Under the pieces are notes generated by a model. The model was not told the DNA's origin. It saw nothing but the letters and a program-made list of their open reading frames with translations, and did no database searches. From Nocardia goodfellowii (GTDB lineage Bacteria > Actinomycetota > Actinomycetes > Mycobacteriales > Mycobacteriaceae): a stretch of DNA of 64,000 bases. Below, in pieces: positions 5,818 through 12,201 of this stretch. Every line of letters starts with the position of its first letter. The first letter of the stretch is position 1. The position numbers and the translations under genes are program-made. The stretch covers positions 5,518,001-5,582,000 of the forward strand of contig NZ_JAGGMR010000001.1 of NCBI RefSeq assembly GCF_017875645.1, written 5' to 3'.

Positions 5818-6477
5818 TCAGTGTGCGGAGTGGGCATGTTGCGGGTCGATGATGCGCGGCTGGTCGAATCGAGTGTTGTCGATGACGATGTCAGCTCGGG
5901 TCCATGGCTGCGACCGCGCGAAGTACAGACGCTGACCGTCGACGTAGCGCCGCATCGTCTGATGCTTGGGGTCCGGGTGAGTGCCATCGCGTCCGGCCAT
6001 CCGCCGCGCGGTCACCTCGAACGGCACGTCCAGAAAAATAGACATATCCCAGAGGTCGGCGAGTTCGTCTCGATGTAGGAACATACCCTCGACAATGACC
6101 ACAGCGTTGCGCGGTGCGAGACCAGCAATCGGACAGACGATGGTGTCGGTGGCAGGGTCGTAGGAAGCGGTGCGATACCAGCCATCACCGCCGGGCCGTA
6201 GCGGATCGAGGGCGTCACGGCGCAAAGCGCGGTAGTTATAGGAATCGAGCCAGAAGCCTTGTGGTGACTGCCTGCCCCGCGCGTGCCGGATCGCGGACGG
6301 GTTCAGGAAATCGTCGGCGTGCAGCACGATGACGGCCCGAGTGTGAAGCCGCTTCACCAATTCGTTGGTGAACGTGGTCTTTCCGCTGCCGTCGATGCCA
6401 TCAACAGCGACAAGCACGCGGTCGACCGCAGCGTTCTTCAATATCCGTGCGGTGATCGTTTGAAAAACATCGACCAT
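5818..6477 (-). CDS. Uridine kinase-like P-loop NTPase
   Basis: A 219-residue P-loop kinase. The Walker A motif GIDGSGKTTF is near residue 27, HADDFLN follows the second strand as in uridine/phosphoribulokinase-like enzymes, and VVIVEGMFLHRDEL is the family's third conserved block. It ends with an RRYVDGQRLYF helix and a DNTRFDQP tail. It most resembles uncharacterised uridine-kinase-like proteins of actinobacteria. Substrate not determined; nucleoside phosphorylation is the family default. The ATG at 6477 (MVDVFQ) is preferred to one at 6504. It stands alone. Confidence 0.75.
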   Translation of the reverse strand: MVDVFQTITARILKNAAVDRVLVAVDGIDGSGKTTFTNELVKRLHTRAVIVLHADDFLNPSAIRHARGRQSPQGFWLDSYNYRALRRDALDPLRPGGDGWYRTASYDPATDTIVCPIAGLAPRNAVVIVEGMFLHRDELADLWDMSIFLDVPFEVTARRMAGRDGTHPDPKHQTMRRYVDGQRLYFARSQPWTRADIVIDNTRFDQPRIIDPQHAHSAH

Positions 6478-6970
6478 CCAATAAGTATCGGCGTGTGGGC
6501 GCACTCTGTCGGGGACGCGATCGATGAGCGCGATCGGAACGGGGTCTACCGCGCTGCCTTCCGTGTAGCGAAGTACCAGTTGGCCTGCCCCACCAGCTGT
6601 CTAGTGTTCGTCCAGGAAGATTGATGCGGTCATTCAGGGGTGGGGTTGATCAAGCGTTCACTGCCCGAGTAGGCGGAGTATCTCTGCTGTGCCTGCCGTC
6701 GGACGCATCTCACAAGCTCTTGTGGGTCTTCCCGCCGAAGGGCTCGGCTCCGGCCTCCAAGAGTGCCTGGACACATCGCGGGCGATGCCCTCGTGTCTGT
6801 CCTGGGCGGTCGTGCGTCGACCGCTCTGACGTGCCGCGCCCACGTGAGCACTGCGACCGGCCGCGCGCCGCAGTGCTCACTTCCCGCCAACGGGCATCAG
6901 GTACTCCGGCACTGGCCATAGTTTTCACCCCGGAGGGGTCTGGAGTGCGCGCCTGCCGCCGAAAGAGATG
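6478..6970. other. Stretch with no intact gene, containing ankyrin remnants
   Basis: No intact gene is recognisable in this 493-bp interval. Its centre holds two out-of-frame ankyrin-like fragments, listed separately. The remaining open frames are arginine-rich and look like antisense or chance translations. Confidence 0.4.
6658..6790 (-). pseudogene. Ankyrin-repeat remnant, broken by a frameshift
   Basis: Reading leftward, one frame gives VQALLEAGAEPFGGKTHKSL and then stops. Shifting frame at that point gives ACEMRPTAGTAEILRLLGQ followed by a stop at 6658-6660. Joined, they reproduce the helix-loop-helix of a terminal ankyrin repeat (LLEAGA-P, then the TAEILRLL helix). No start codon or further repeat is visible, so this is probably the decayed 3' end of an ankyrin protein gene. 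Confidence 0.4.
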
Positions 6971-7474
6971 TCAGTAGGCGGCGTTGACTCCGTACTCCGC
7001 CTGGGCGCGTGTGAAGCCGTCGTACACCAACTGATCGATCAGTCCGGACCGAGAGAACGAGGTGTACTCCAGGTACTGCTCGGCGCTCTTTGCCGCCTGC
7101 TCGTTCCAGTCCACATTCAAGCTGTCCACCGCGAACGTAGCGTCTGCGGTGGAGAAGTCTTCGTACTCGAGCTGGTGGATCAGACCGCTGCGGGAGAAAG
7201 CAGAGTAGTCGAGGTACTGCTGGGCAGACCGGATGGCGTTGCGCTGACCGGAGGTGATGTCTCCCTCGGCCGGGACGAATTCAACCGCGAGTGTCGAGAC
7301 AGGCGCCGCGATATCCGGCCGAGCGACGTCGGCCGCTGCCTGAGCGCTGTTCCATGCGGGTGTCGCCACGGCGAGGGCCAGCACCGGGGCGCCGACCAGC
7401 CACACCCATTTCTTCTGCTTCTTCGGCGCGGCCAACAGGTAGCTGGGCTGAGGGGCGAGGAACGGCTCGGTCAT
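6971..7474 (-). CDS. Membrane-anchored protein with two tandem Ltp (host cell surface-exposed lipoprotein) domains
   Basis: A 167-residue protein: a short cytoplasmic N-terminus with a lysine cluster (18-22), one transmembrane or uncleaved signal segment (about 23-41), a linker, then two tandem Ltp domains (about 75-120 and 123-167). Each repeats SA-QYL-Y--FSRSGLI-QL-Y--F. The domain was first described in a Streptococcus thermophilus prophage lipoprotein that blocks superinfection, and it is common in actinobacterial surface proteins of unknown role. No lipobox cysteine is present, so anchoring is by the hydrophobic segment. The ATG at 7474 follows AAGGAGCACCAG, which fixes the start; an upstream extension of the frame is not protein-like. 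Confidence 0.8.
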   Translation of the reverse strand: MTEPFLAPQPSYLLAAPKKQKKWVWLVGAPVLALAVATPAWNSAQAAADVARPDIAAPVSTLAVEFVPAEGDITSGQRNAIRSAQQYLDYSAFSRSGLIHQLEYEDFSTADATFAVDSLNVDWNEQAAKSAEQYLEYTSFSRSGLIDQLVYDGFTRAQAEYGVNAAY

Positions 7475-8043
7475 CTGGTGCTCCTTGAAGAAGGTGTGTC
7501 GTCGCCGACGCGTCCCGCAGATGCGAGAACAGGTCAGGATGTCACAGCCCACCGACACTGATGGAATGTGGCTCCCGGCAAGCAGATTGGATTGTTTCGC
7601 AAGGGGCGAATCTTTCGGTCCCGCGCGTAAGGTTCGCTGGTTGCCGCAGCCGATGGCGGGCCTGGCCCGCCAGGTGCTGCCGGGCAGGTCCGAGGTGCTG
7701 CCCGGCCTTTCATTGTGGCGGTGCGCCCGAAGGCGGTGCACTCTGCCCGTCCCGGAATCACCTGATCGGCGAGCCCGGCCAGCCGCTGTCATGTTTTGTT
7801 TCGGCGTCTCGCCCGTGCGCACCGGCATTTGTAGTTGATACGCAGTGAATTCGACCGCTGACCGAGCACTCAGCGGTGTGAGCGAGCAGCGCTGGCGCTC
7901 GGCAGACGCTCGTGCTCACCCTGGTGCGGCTTCAGTTTCGCTGCATGAGAACAGGGTCGGGGGACACAATGATCGACGGGCTCGTGCCGAGCGCCTGTTC
8001 TCCGAGATAGTCGGCTGCATCCAATGCACAAGGAGCTCTCGAG
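7475..8043. other. Gene-free stretch with a direct repeat and a GC hairpin
   Basis: No convincing gene in 569 bp. AGGTGCTGCC occurs twice (7672-7681 and 7693-7702), and CCGGGCAG (7680-7687) pairs with CTGCCCGG (7698-7705) across a 10-base loop, followed by CCTTTCATT. The hairpin could be a weak rightward terminator, but no rightward gene lies before it. Confidence 0.35.
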
Positions 8044-8277
8044 ATGACCATCTCGTGTTCGACCTGTAGCTACACGGTGACCAAGATCGCCGAAAAAGAC
8101 CAAGGCGACCAGCAGGCGATCGAGACGGCGGCCGGGCCGGCGATACTCGATGATCTTCCAAAGTCCATGCGTGCCGAGGCCGCTGAATTCTTGGACCAAT
8201 ACGGCGATCGGGTCGCTGAGTTGTTGATCATCGGACACTCAGCCCACGAGGTCTGCCAAGGGTTGCATCTGTGCTGA
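8044..8277 (+). CDS. Small saposin B-like protein
   Basis: A 77-residue protein that reads like a single saposin domain. The N-terminal CSTC (Cys5, Cys8) and C-terminal VCQGLHLC (Cys71, Cys77) correspond to the outer cysteines of saposins, which pair first-to-last and second-to-second-last. The middle DDLPKSMRAEAAEFLDQYGD matches the saposin helix-turn region, but the usual central cysteine pair is absent (Ile34/Leu35 and Ala46 lie there). Saposin-fold proteins bind or perturb membranes and lipids. The ATG follows AAGGAG (8030-8035) at good spacing, so the gene looks real. No signal peptide is visible, so how it would be oxidised or exported is unclear. It stands alone between the Ltp protein and the Nudix pair. 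Confidence 0.7.
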   Translation: MTISCSTCSYTVTKIAEKDQGDQQAIETAAGPAILDDLPKSMRAEAAEFLDQYGDRVAELLIIGHSAHEVCQGLHLC

Positions 8278-8624
8278 GGCCGGCGACTACTCAGCCAACA
8301 ACGGGCGCGCTCCTCGCGAGGTCATCTAGGCACTCGATCCCGAGTGAGTCCCGTAGCCGTTCCCGGATCGCGCGATAGGCGGCAAGACAGTGCGTTGGTC
8401 GCAGGGCCGAGAACGCTGTTGCGGAACAGCCGTGGTGGTGTAGTCAGCCGATGATGACCTCCCGAATTCCAGCCAGAGAGAAGGGCTCGTCCCGATGTGG
8501 CGCTACGGCGGGGCAGTCATCAGAAATCACTCTCGAGTCCAGCAGGGACCAGTCCGGACCTCAGTGTTGGAGGGCGCGCGCAACTTATCTGCGTAGCACA
8601 GCAGCGCGCGGATAAAATGGCGTG
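8278..8624. other. Gene-free stretch
   Basis: I found no gene, clear terminator or repeat in this 347-bp gap between the saposin-like gene and the convergent Nudix gene. Confidence 0.35.
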
Positions 8625-9086
8625 TCACCTCGAGTCGACACGCCGTCCTTGCTCGACTCGAGTCTCGGCACGGAGATACTTGTCGAGATTGCTTTGGCTG
8701 ATCTGGGAGAGCGGCGTGGGCAGTGCGGCCAGCTCGTACCATCCGATCTCACTGCACTTTTCTGGTTCCCGGATACGAGGTGTACCACCGCGGTGATGAG
8801 CAAGATACGTGGCGGCTATCCAATGTTGGTTCTCGGCCAGCAGAATGTGGTCGAAGAGCCCGATCAGACTGCGGAGTTCGATCTCCATCCCGTACTCCTC
8901 GCGGAACTCCCGGCGGATGGCGTCCTCGATGCGCTCGCCGAAGGTGACCTTACCGCCGGGGAACTCCCAGTTACCAACCTCATTGCTGGCCGCCGGGCCA
9001 CGTCGGGCCAAGAAGACCTTGCCGCTGGCGTCGAACACCATGGCACCCACACCCACTCCGATACAGTCCCGTCCTGGGATCATCAA
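8625..9086 (-). CDS. Nudix hydrolase
   Basis: A 153-residue Nudix hydrolase, about the size of MutT-like enzymes. The Nudix box begins at GGKVTFGE and ends REFREEYG, fitting G-x5-E-x7-REUxEExGU with all metal-binding glutamates present. WNFPGG-type lead-in is seen as WEFPGG. Such enzymes cleave nucleoside diphosphates linked to another group; the substrate is not evident. The gene starts 6 bp after the stop of the membrane-protein gene, so the two are almost certainly translated from one message. The pairing suggests that the Nudix domain makes, removes or senses a nucleotide linked to the membrane partner. Confidence 0.85.
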   Translation of the reverse strand: MMIPGRDCIGVGVGAMVFDASGKVFLARRGPAASNEVGNWEFPGGKVTFGERIEDAIRREFREEYGMEIELRSLIGLFDHILLAENQHWIAATYLAHHRGGTPRIREPEKCSEIGWYELAALPTPLSQISQSNLDKYLRAETRVEQGRRVDSR

Positions 9087-9092
9087 CCCACC

Positions 9093-9638
9093 TCATTTCA
9101 TTTTGGGCAGGATCAGTATGTGCGCATAGATCCACATAAAGGCCGTAGACGCGGCGATGAAGAGGATGATGTATGTCTCGTACCACCGGATCATGTTGCC
9201 GAATTTCGGCGGCTTCCGGAAGCCTTCATGCACCACTTCATTGGTCAGTTCGCATTCCTCGTTCCGGTAGTCGATCCAGGAGACTACTCCGATAACGATC
9301 AGCACGATCGTGAAGGCGGCGACCACGGTTTCCAGCCACATCAGCCCCGTGATGGCGGCTCGGGCGGTCTCGGGCGCAAGTTCCAGCTTCTTATAACTCA
9401 CGAAGAGGACAAGTCCCGAACTTACGATGGCTGTCGCTAGCGTCTGGTAGATAGCAAGAAACTTGTAGACGTTCTCGTTGAGTGCGTGGATCTGTTGCAG
9501 GATGTACTTATATCGTTCCAGCGCAAACGCTTCGAGCACGGCAGACGATGCCGGGGGATTTGGCGTGGGCACCGGATTGGGCTCGTCGGCAACTGGACCG
9601 TCATTCCCATGTCCGATTGGTCCTGGCGGTGTACTCAC
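9093..9638 (-). CDS. Three-TM membrane protein of unknown function, paired with a Nudix hydrolase
   Basis: A 181-residue protein starting at GTG (9638): a proline-rich soluble N-terminus (1-32), an amphipathic segment (ERYKYILQQIHALNENVYKF), then hydrophobic segments at about 60-80, 95-122 and 153-176, the last near the C-terminus. A charged loop lies between the second and third segments. I do not recognise a named family. The soluble helix leading into a small helical membrane domain resembles SLATT-type effector proteins of nucleotide-signalling conflict systems, but this is only a resemblance in layout. It is the first gene of the two-gene unit with the Nudix hydrolase. Confidence 0.75.
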   Translation of the reverse strand: MSTPPGPIGHGNDGPVADEPNPVPTPNPPASSAVLEAFALERYKYILQQIHALNENVYKFLAIYQTLATAIVSSGLVLFVSYKKLELAPETARAAITGLMWLETVVAAFTIVLIVIGVVSWIDYRNEECELTNEVVHEGFRKPPKFGNMIRWYETYIILFIAASTAFMWIYAHILILPKMK

Positions 9639-10048
9639 GAGGAGATGGACTCCTAACTATGTCGCAAATCACCTCCAAGATATCGTCGAACGCACTCAAA
9701 GGTGGTGAACCGGCCAGTTTTTGACTCAACTCGCAAGGATGCGTCGCCTGCGGGCGGCGGCAGACGCCACCGGGTCGGCATCGGTTGCCACGCGGCGGCG
9801 ATGGTGACGGTCCGCGCGCCGATCCCGCTGAGATATGCGACGAGCCGCCGGTTCGATATCGGGCCGAAACGCGCTGGAGCAAACGATTTCGACAGCTCAT
9901 CCCCATCGGCGGCGGCACCGGCCGGTTCGCAGAGCCCAGTCTGCGGTCGGGCCGTAGGGCGCTGGCCGGTTCAATCTGCGCGCAGTAGCGACATGAGCTG
10001 AGTATTGCGGCTGCGGGGTCTCGCGGACCCCGCTGGAGGTTGCGGTCA
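9639..10048. other. Gene-free stretch holding the promoter of the membrane protein/Nudix unit
   Basis: No convincing gene in 410 bp between the pentapeptide-protein stop and the membrane-protein start. The promoter of the leftward pair should lie near 9640-9720, which is less GC-rich than its surroundings; I could not define its elements. Confidence 0.35.
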
Positions 10049-11281
10049 TCAGGGTGGGGTGAATCCATCAGGCCACCGGGTCTGGGAGTCGTGTACCACC
10101 CCAGTGAGATTGGTGCCATCAAGATTCGCGCCAGTGAGATCGGCGCCGGACAGGTCCGCACCGGTCAGGTCCGCACCGGCGAGGATCGCATTATCGAGCC
10201 GCGCGTCGTTGAGGTTCGCACCGTGGAGCTGCGCGCCGATGAGGTCCGCGCGGGTCAGATTCGCACTGAGAAGTTCAGCGCCGATCAGGTTCGCGCTGCG
10301 CAGATATGCGCCGGTAAGGTTCGCATTCCACAGGGTCGCGCCTTCGAGATTCGCATTCGAAAGGGTGGCGTCGGTCAGGTTTGCCTCGGAGAGGCGGGCG
10401 TCTCGGAGGTTCGCATCGTCGAGATCAGCGCCGGTGAGGTTCGCGGTGGCCATATTCGCACCGGCCATGTTCGCGCTGGACAGGTTCGCGTCCGAAAAGA
10501 TAGTGGCAACCGTATGCGAGGACTGGAGCAGGGCGCCCTCGAGGTTCGCGCTGTGGAACTTCGAGACGTTGAGCACAGCGCCGGTGAGGTTCACTCCGGC
10601 GAAGTCCACACCGGTGAGATCGGTGTTGTACAGGTCGGCCTGGGCCAGACAGGCCCGCTGCAGGTTCACCCGCGGTGTCGGGTGCGGCAGAGTGATGTAC
10701 TTCGCGATGACGTCCAAGGCGGCTTGGGTGTCCACCGGCGCTTCTGGTCTGGAGGTTTCGCAGGGCCTGTTCGCAGTTTCGGTACGGATGAATGCTTCGA
10801 GCAACCGCCGGACGGTGGGTTGATCGGCTTTTGAGTCCTGAGCAAGGCGTTCGAGCAGGTAGACCCCGCTGAGGCGGACACTGTCCTTGTCTGAATCCAA
10901 CTGCTCGGCAGCTGACTTGAGCAGCTCGGTTTGTGCGGTCTGGCGCGTCAAACCGAGTTGGTCATTGGATGCGCTCAACGTGCTGTTGGAGAAATAGAGC
11001 GCGCCAATCGCGGCGAACGCCGCCATCACCGTCCCCGTAGCACTCGCTACCGTGGCGGCCTTCATCCACTTGGCGCCGGATGGCGCGGCCGTCTGCTGGG
11101 GACGGGCCGTGTGCGGCGCCGATTCCGGTGACCGGTTCCCCTCCGGCACAGGCGAAGCCGCGGCTTCCTCGGTCGACTGCCCTTGGGAAGCCGTTGATGT
11201 CGCCCCTGATTCGTGTTCATCCGGGTCTGGCCGCGGTGAAACGTCGGCACCCTCGCTCGCGCGTTGCGCATCCCCTGCCGT
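10049..11281 (-). CDS. Membrane-anchored pentapeptide-repeat protein
   Basis: A 410-residue protein: a polar, low-complexity N-terminus rich in Ser, Pro and Glu (1-68), one transmembrane segment (about 72-95), a helical region (about 110-160, LSGVYLLERLAQDSK) and about 30 pentapeptide repeats of the A(D/N)Lxx type filling the C-terminal half. Pentapeptide repeats fold as a right-handed quadrilateral beta-helix. The helical region plus repeats, anchored by one TM, is a common actinobacterial and cyanobacterial architecture of unknown function; gyrase-protecting members lack the anchor. The GTG at 11281 is preferred because an AT-rich -10-like AGAATT precedes it and the upstream extension to 11356 is not protein-like. 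No Shine-Dalgarno is visible, so the start is uncertain. Confidence 0.75.
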   Translation of the reverse strand, partial: TAGDAQRASEGADVSPRPDPDEHESGATSTASQGQSTEEAAASPVPEGNRSPESAPHTARPQQTAAPSGAKWMKAATVASATGTVMAAFAAIGALYFSNSTLSASNDQLGLTRQTAQTELLKSAAEQLDSDKDSVRLSGVYLLERLAQDSKADQPTVRRLLEAFIRTETANRPCETSRPEAPVDTQAALDVIAKYITLPHPTPRVNLQRACLAQADLYNTDLTGVDFAGVNLTGAVLNVSKFHSANLEGALLQSSHTVATIFSDANLSSANMAGANMATANLTGADLDDANLRDARLSEANLTDATLSNANLEGATLWNANLTGAYLRSANLIGAELLSANLTRADLIGAQLHGANLNDARLDNAILAGADLTGADLSGADLTGANLDGTNLTGVVHDSQTRWPDGFTPP

Positions 11282-11673
11282 CACACCACTAATTCTGCCA
11301 ACCCCGCACGGCCACAACACATCACGTTCTGGATACCGCGAAGTGCCTGCGGACATCGCGGCAGCAGCAAAGAGACGTCGACGCCTACCCGAGGAACTCG
11401 CGCTGCCGCCGACGGTCGAAAATCGCGGTGCACGGCACCAAAATTGTGGTCCCCGCGATCACGGCGGCGAGGGCCAGCAGGACGGTCCGAATGTAGGAGC
11501 CGAACAGCACTTCTTGGCGGACGCCGACGCGGGGGCGAACAGGTACGGCAGCGATGGGCTGCGGAGGTGGTCAGCCGGCGCGGACGGCGGGTGTGAGGCA
11601 CGCGACACTGGACCTCGAGTGGACTCGAGGTCGCACGATGGCTTCGACACCACATTCGAGGAGGAAACCAACT
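11282..11673. other. Intergenic stretch with a possible leftward gene relic
   Basis: Read leftward, an open stretch from about 11575 to a stop at 11385-11387 encodes a plausible membrane segment (SYIRTVLLALAAVIAGTT) followed by a basic tail (FDRRRQREFLG). There is no good start codon, and a stop lies just upstream in frame. It may be the 3' remnant of a permease gene, but no family is identifiable. The rest shows no gene. Confidence 0.3.
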
Positions 11674-12102
11674 GTGCCGAAACTTGACCGGATCATCGAG
11701 TCTGCGTTGTATGTCGACAATCTCGATCGGGCCCGTGAGTTCTATACCGATGTGTTGCAACTGAATCCGATTCTGGACGCGGATCCTTTGTGCGCGTTCG
11801 ATATCGGGGGCGACAACGTGCTGCTGCTGTTTCGCCGTGGCGGATCGCTCGCACCCAAGGTGTTGTCCGGACCGGGACTGCCGAACGGTGAGATCCCGCC
11901 GCACGATGGCAGCGGTCGGCTCCACGTATGCTTCGCTGTCTCCGAGGACCAACTGACCGAGTGGGAAACTCACCTGCGAGCGCACGACATCCCGATCGAG
12001 GGCCGGACCAACTGGGTACGTGGCGGACGTAGCATCTACTTCCGCGATCCGGATGGACACCTCCTCGAACTCATGACACCAGGTAACTGGCCGACGTACT
12101 GA
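11674..12102 (+). CDS. VOC-superfamily (glyoxalase-fold) protein
   Basis: A 142-residue VOC protein with two beta-alpha-beta-beta-beta modules: the first opens with ESALYVDNLDRAREFYTDVL, the second carries HVCFAV and ends FRDPDGHLLELMTP, which supplies the usual metal-binding Glu. The group includes glyoxalases, dioxygenases and antibiotic-binding proteins; this one most resembles small glyoxalase/bleomycin-resistance-like proteins. The GTG at 11674 is chosen because GAGGAGG (11659-11665) lies at ideal spacing; an ATG at 11638 in the same frame lacks one. It stands alone. Confidence 0.8.
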   Translation: MPKLDRIIESALYVDNLDRAREFYTDVLQLNPILDADPLCAFDIGGDNVLLLFRRGGSLAPKVLSGPGLPNGEIPPHDGSGRLHVCFAVSEDQLTEWETHLRAHDIPIEGRTNWVRGGRSIYFRDPDGHLLELMTPGNWPTY

Positions 12103-12201
12103 TCCTCCTGACCCGTGCGTGCACGCCGAGTGATTCCCGTACCGGCGAATGCCGACGTCGTGATGGTGACGGCAAGGTGGCGGCGTCAGCGAAGCAAGGG
12201 A

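Follow-up and report, generated by a model that had tools for sequence, protein, structure and literature searches.

Saposins are usually regarded as eukaryotic secretory-pathway proteins held by three disulphides, which raises the question of whether a small free-standing protein encoded by an actinomycete can be a saposin and, if so, how it might work. The window, a stretch of 64,000 nucleotides (positions 5518001-5582000 of contig 1) of the Nocardia goodfellowii genome (7.98 Mb, 2 contigs), contains such a candidate, P0001. An initial annotation, made from the letters alone, had described a 77-residue ORF with Cys5, Cys8, Cys71 and Cys77, a strong ribosome binding site and no signal peptide, all of which were found again on inspection of the region:

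8044..8277, + strand: gene for the saposin-like mini-protein P0001 (77 aa; SapB_2 match over cut-off, human saposin C match, relative P0003)
8030..8035, + strand: ribosome binding site AAGGAG of P0001 (from the sequence; 8 nt spacer to the ATG)
8008..8010, + strand: in-frame TAG closing the frame upstream of P0001 (read from the sequence)

The TAG lies 36 nt upstream of the ATG, with 11 sense codons between them and a whole open frame of 88 aa. P0001 thus has no longer N-terminus or hidden signal peptide, and its own N-terminus, MTISCSTCSYTVTK, was judged by eye not to be one. The public gene call, P0002 (66 aa), begins at an internal GTG 11 codons late, removing both N-terminal cysteines (CxxC). 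We favour the ATG at 8044 over this GTG since it is preceded by the ribosome binding site and the identical start is used in P0003. The GC content of P0001 by codon position (0.58/0.43/0.74) is close to that of three neighbouring genes. Within 7600-8700 we found four terminator-like sites and no sigma-70-type promoter.

The saposin relationship proposed in the annotation was recovered by both profile and sequence searches. P0001 matched Pfam SapB_2 at 24.6 bits (cut-off 21, E 2.9e-5) and P0003 matched it at 28.7 bits. A phmmer search of P0001 against all PDB chains gave human saposin C at E 6.2e-6 over residues 3-77, followed by a decarboxylase (E 0.057) and granulysin (E 0.16), and a three-row profile also matched saposin C in the PDB, at E 3.5e-5. 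Amoebapore A, which has three disulphides, was missing from the eight matches of the phmmer search. SapB_1 gave no row for P0001 at E≤10, in a search whose filters drop most rows above 0.1, and an NCBIfam search of P0001 gave no match. As a control, nine shuffles of P0001 were searched with the cysteines held fixed; 0/9 gave a SapB match, and the rows that did appear were two weak ones (E 0.12) unrelated to saposins. In the alignment of P0001 with saposin C, 23/73 aligned pairs are identical, and by sequence saposin C is the nearest to P0001 among solved structures. On these alignments P0001 is almost certainly a true, though divergent, homologue of eukaryotic saposins. A three-row alignment gave an AlphaFold2 model of P0001 with low confidence, its mean pLDDT being 47.7.

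Saposins have six cysteines, paired C1-C6, C2-C5 and C3-C4. The matches place the cysteines and the central loop of P0001 as follows:

8185..8274, + strand: SapB_2 profile match, residues 48-77 (Pfam)
8056..8067, + strand: Cys5-Ser-Thr-Cys8, equivalents of saposin C1 and C2 (phmmer alignment to saposin C; kept in P0003)
8155..8166, + strand: LPKS, the same as in the saposin C loop (phmmer alignment)
8254..8274, + strand: Cys71-QGLHL-Cys77, equivalents of saposin C5 and C6 (Pfam, phmmer alignment, P0003)

LPKS (residues 38-41) and YGD (residues 53-55) occupy the middle of the protein, where the annotation had put them, and it was right that the central cysteine pair is missing: LPKS is flanked by Leu35 and Ala46, which stand at the C3 and C4 positions in both P0001 and P0003. 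These two proteins also share His68 and His75. With C1, C2, C5 and C6 alone and no secretory-pathway signal, P0001 differs from saposin-like proteins as characterized by six cysteines in three pairs and by such a signal; one study gives the number of their disulphides as "mostly three" (PMC11542183). Because C3 and C4 are replaced, we class P0001 as a divergent homologue and not as a canonical saposin-like protein.

We then asked how widely P0001 occurs. P0003 (77 aa) is 74% identical to it, ungapped, with the same start and all four cysteines. The expectation that the frame would be conserved in relatives therefore holds for P0003, which is intact, and fails for Nocardia suismassiliense, in which the copy is broken:

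L003:1495-1695, - strand: broken copy of P0001 in N. suismassiliense (genome G127), residues 26-76, 78% identity

For roughly the first 29 codons of P0001, blastn found nothing corresponding in this copy, and the last cysteine is lost. With P0001 as query, 3/150 Nocardia genomes gave matches at E≤0.01, namely its own, that of the broken copy and G142, whose match (22 bits, E 0.002) falls within a frame of 14,688 residues and was taken as chance. SapB_2 is present in 2/148 Nocardia genomes (over the cut-off in G127), in 1/301 sampled genomes of the family and, at E≤0.01, in 2/396 genomes of a phylum sample, one of them over the cut-off; the other (G767) is below it and has a stop inside. The family and phylum tallies are samples, from which G127 is absent, presumably not drawn. 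None of 14 control genomes had SapB_2. With a profile of both saposin-like families of N. goodfellowii (see below), 5/348 genomes of the order gave rows at E≤0.1, its own genome alone being convincing; the other four rows (E 0.02-0.06) come from frames between 195 and 1642 residues long and were taken as chance. The rarity of saposin proteins suggested in the annotation is thus upheld within the sampled Actinomycetota.

Among ~5.8 billion proteins, the relatives found were P0002, P0003, P0005 and P0006, in a search that relies on shared short words and may miss more distant ones. P0003 and P0006 are encoded on metagenome contigs of 3386 bp and 12137 bp. The P0002 cluster covers two contigs, the longer one matching the chromosome of N. 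goodfellowii in length, so another near-identical copy of P0001 may exist. A scan of genome contigs with P0001 gave no match. No match to P0001 was found in plasmids, phages or viral contigs, and phage or plasmid cargo was set aside as its origin. The A5 profile likewise had no match in viral contigs, P0006 gave one weak plasmid row (E 0.7) under a phage tail gene, taken as chance, and neither PHROGs (best E 0.2) nor PADLOC (best E 0.018) yielded a match of note.

The same genome carries a second gene of this kind, outside the window:

L005:1492-1731 (G000:C1:5461400-5461639, stop included), - strand: P0004, 79 aa, second divergent saposin-like gene

Members of the P0004 family have two cysteines and no more, corresponding to C2 and C5 of saposins. 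P0004 scored 24.3 bits against SapB_1 (cut-off 25.2), and its model is a confidently predicted saposin fold, a leaf of four or five helices. As query it matched 2/148 Nocardia genomes (its own and G127), and in the scan of genome contigs N. suismassiliense alone; it had no match in plasmids and one weak row in phages (E 0.2), taken as chance. The N. suismassiliense protein P0005, annotated at its source as "saposin domain-containing protein", belongs to this family and is 92% identical to P0004. Between the two genes we counted seven synonymous and six non-synonymous differences (dN/dS 0.22, Fisher p 0.009), which argues that the P0004 family is under purifying selection. N. goodfellowii is thus a carrier of two saposin-like families, each without whole disulphide pairs.

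This second family bears on a different reading of P0001, as a metal-binding mini-protein with a CxxC plus Cx5C zinc site and a merely convergent likeness to saposins. The four cysteines are laid out as CxxC...Cx5C and H68 and H75 are possible further ligands, but the similarity to saposin C spans the whole length of the protein, the SapB match is lost in shuffles that keep every cysteine in place, and a partner family that retains C2 and C5 alone could not form a four-cysteine site. We consider this reading highly improbable and set it aside on the last of these grounds.

Comparison of the surroundings gave little that is shared between the two genomes:

8131..8382, no strand: block common to P0001 and the broken N. 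suismassiliense copy (blastn, 253 columns, 85%)

This block comprises the last 48 codons of P0001, the stop and ~105 bp downstream. Across the compared 20-kb stretches, homology was found over these 253 columns at P0001 and over 436 columns at P0004, and nowhere else. Just 3´ of P0001, and partly within the block, is a remnant similar to the C-terminal portion of a BTAD regulator (8315-8401, - strand; E 0.011, 16.6 vs 22.1 bits). Upstream of P0001 is an Ltp-type host cell surface lipoprotein gene (6971-7828, - strand) with two PF07553 stretches; it was matched in 16/147 other Nocardia genomes (73-91% DNA identity over parts), and in the same comparison the saposin part matched G127 alone. Farther downstream are a pentapeptide-repeat protein gene (10049-11356, - strand) with an N-terminal membrane-like segment by eye, in a region that matches a place in G129 at 82% identity over 1.4 kb, and a glyoxalase-type gene (11554-12102, + strand). 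The N. suismassiliense copy of the latter, at L012:11240-11761, corresponds to 11592-12112 of the window, is ~1 kb from P0005 and has different surroundings from that in the window. Pfam searches of six ORFs in 5818-12102 gave kinase-like, Ltp lipoprotein, NUDIX, no match, pentapeptide repeats and glyoxalase, with no evident operon partner for P0001 among these neighbours. The surroundings of P0001 are a mosaic in which single genes seem to come and go.

Could P0001 be a relic, acquired from a eukaryote and drifting without function? Its rarity in the sampled genomes, the lack of conserved neighbours, the broken N. suismassiliense copy and the dN/dS of 0.59 in the sole DNA comparison available (P0001 against that copy, 48 codons) would fit. 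P0003, however, has kept the four cysteines, L35/A46 and His68/His75 at 74% ungapped identity, the frame and ribosome binding site of P0001 are intact in the window, and the partner family is constrained, so that drift seems improbable to us.

The computed charge of P0001 (pI 4.56) is -7.3 at pH 7 and +0.4 at pH 4.5. That of P0003 similarly moves from -4.4 to +1.4, and that of P0004 only from -8.5 to -2.9. This charge profile resembles that of acidic saposins more than that of cationic bacteriocins. A saposin-like fold is found in many of the leaderless and circular bacteriocins (PMC6072434), and the P0001 gene is small, leaderless, patchy in distribution and without conserved neighbours, as might be expected of a membrane-lytic peptide aimed at competing bacteria. 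Those bacteriocins are, however, described as cysteine-free, and the ones compared here have charges of +1 to +6 (PMC6072434), while P0001 is neither cysteine-free nor cationic, and no transporter or immunity domain was found among the six Pfam-scanned window ORFs (one of them without any match). A bacteriocin role is, in our estimate, distinctly unlikely.

The reading we prefer, tentatively and with a little less than even confidence, is that P0001 works as saposins do, by acid-switched binding to lipids or membranes. We base this proposal on the charge, His68/His75, the acid activity of amoebapores and the closed and open forms of saposin C, both of which are known (PMC3226326). The membrane activity of amoebapores and amoebapore-like peptides is described as acid-dependent: with Dictyostelium peptides, pore formation is much stronger at pH 4.4 than at 5.2 and anionic lipids are preferred (PMC11542183), and the acid switch of amoebapore A is a C-terminal histidine (PMC5198042), to which His68/His75 of P0001 and P0003 offer a parallel that is suggestive only. 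At neutral pH, P0001 would be a compact helical leaf with a strongly negative charge. Acid would protonate its carboxylates and C-terminal histidines and the leaf would open, exposing a hydrophobic face that may bind, extract or perturb membrane lipids. The disulphides would be C1-C6 (Cys5-Cys77) and C2-C5 (Cys8-Cys71), of which P0004 would keep C2-C5. Since P0001 lacks a signal peptide, it would act on lipids inside the cell, or outside after leaderless export or lysis, where its cysteines can oxidise. What the analysis shows is the homology, the layout of the cysteines, a frame conserved in one relative, the lack of a signal peptide, the calculated charge and, as a prediction, the fold of P0004; the disulphides, the acid switch, the lipid target and the place of action are inferred from these. 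When Dictyostelium peptides were reduced and alkylated, pore formation was abolished in two of them and fell by more than half in two others (PMC11542183).

Were P0001 instead to stay reduced in the cytosol, it could be a lipid carrier or enzyme helper, handing lipids to one of the lipid enzymes of Nocardia in the way that saposins present sphingolipids to hydrolases. By eye, a signal peptide is absent from P0001, P0003, P0004, P0005 and P0006 alike, and one study reports that a plant saposin-like insert without disulphides stays folded in simulation and that saposin B without disulphides retained its enzyme-activation motifs (PMC7447066). Against this, P0001 and P0003 have both retained C5, C8, C71 and C77, seemingly beyond the need of a reduced protein, no lipid enzyme occurs among the six scanned neighbours, and the presence of SapB_2 in just 2/148 Nocardia genomes places P0001 outside core lipid metabolism. 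We regard a cytosolic carrier as unlikely.

Extending the acid-switched reading, Nocardia may have taken up eukaryote-type saposins as leaderless, fewer-disulphide mini-proteins that would be released in acid compartments and open membranes there, for example after amoebal uptake. We offer this as a long shot; if true, an amoeba's kind of weapon would be borne by its prey, and the two families could represent two uptakes. Two divergent, signal-less bacterial saposins without whole disulphide pairs would constitute a natural experiment on the disulphide needs of the fold, and bear on the choice between borrowing of saposins by bacteria and an ancient common origin. P0001 is also small and easy to test, with fold, redox state and lipid binding each addressable with purified protein.

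Our literature search found no published study of free, signal-less bacterial saposin homologues, bacteriocins apart. Leaderless bacteriocins, as presented in PMC6072434, are like P0001 in being bacterial, leaderless and small with a helical leaf (proposed for P0001), and unlike it in being cysteine-free and mostly cationic, P0001 being anionic with four cysteines. Vampirococcus lugosii provides another bacterial saposin domain; it is mentioned as part of large surface proteins (PMC8080830), whereas P0001 is a free mini-protein. P0005 of N. suismassiliense is like P0004, to whose family it belongs, and at 13% identity to P0001 is not its orthologue. Amoebapores (PDB 1of9; PMC11542183, PMC5198042) share with P0001 a 77-residue domain (1of9) and a histidine near the C-terminus; the Dictyostelium amoebapore-like peptides differ in being made as precursors with a signal peptide (PMC11542183). 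In contrast to human saposin C (PDB 2gtg, 1m12), P0001 consists of one domain that stands alone, with no signal, proregion or C3-C4 pair, yet the two match over the whole length, with LPKS and LHLC identical and C1, C2, C5 and C6 in register.
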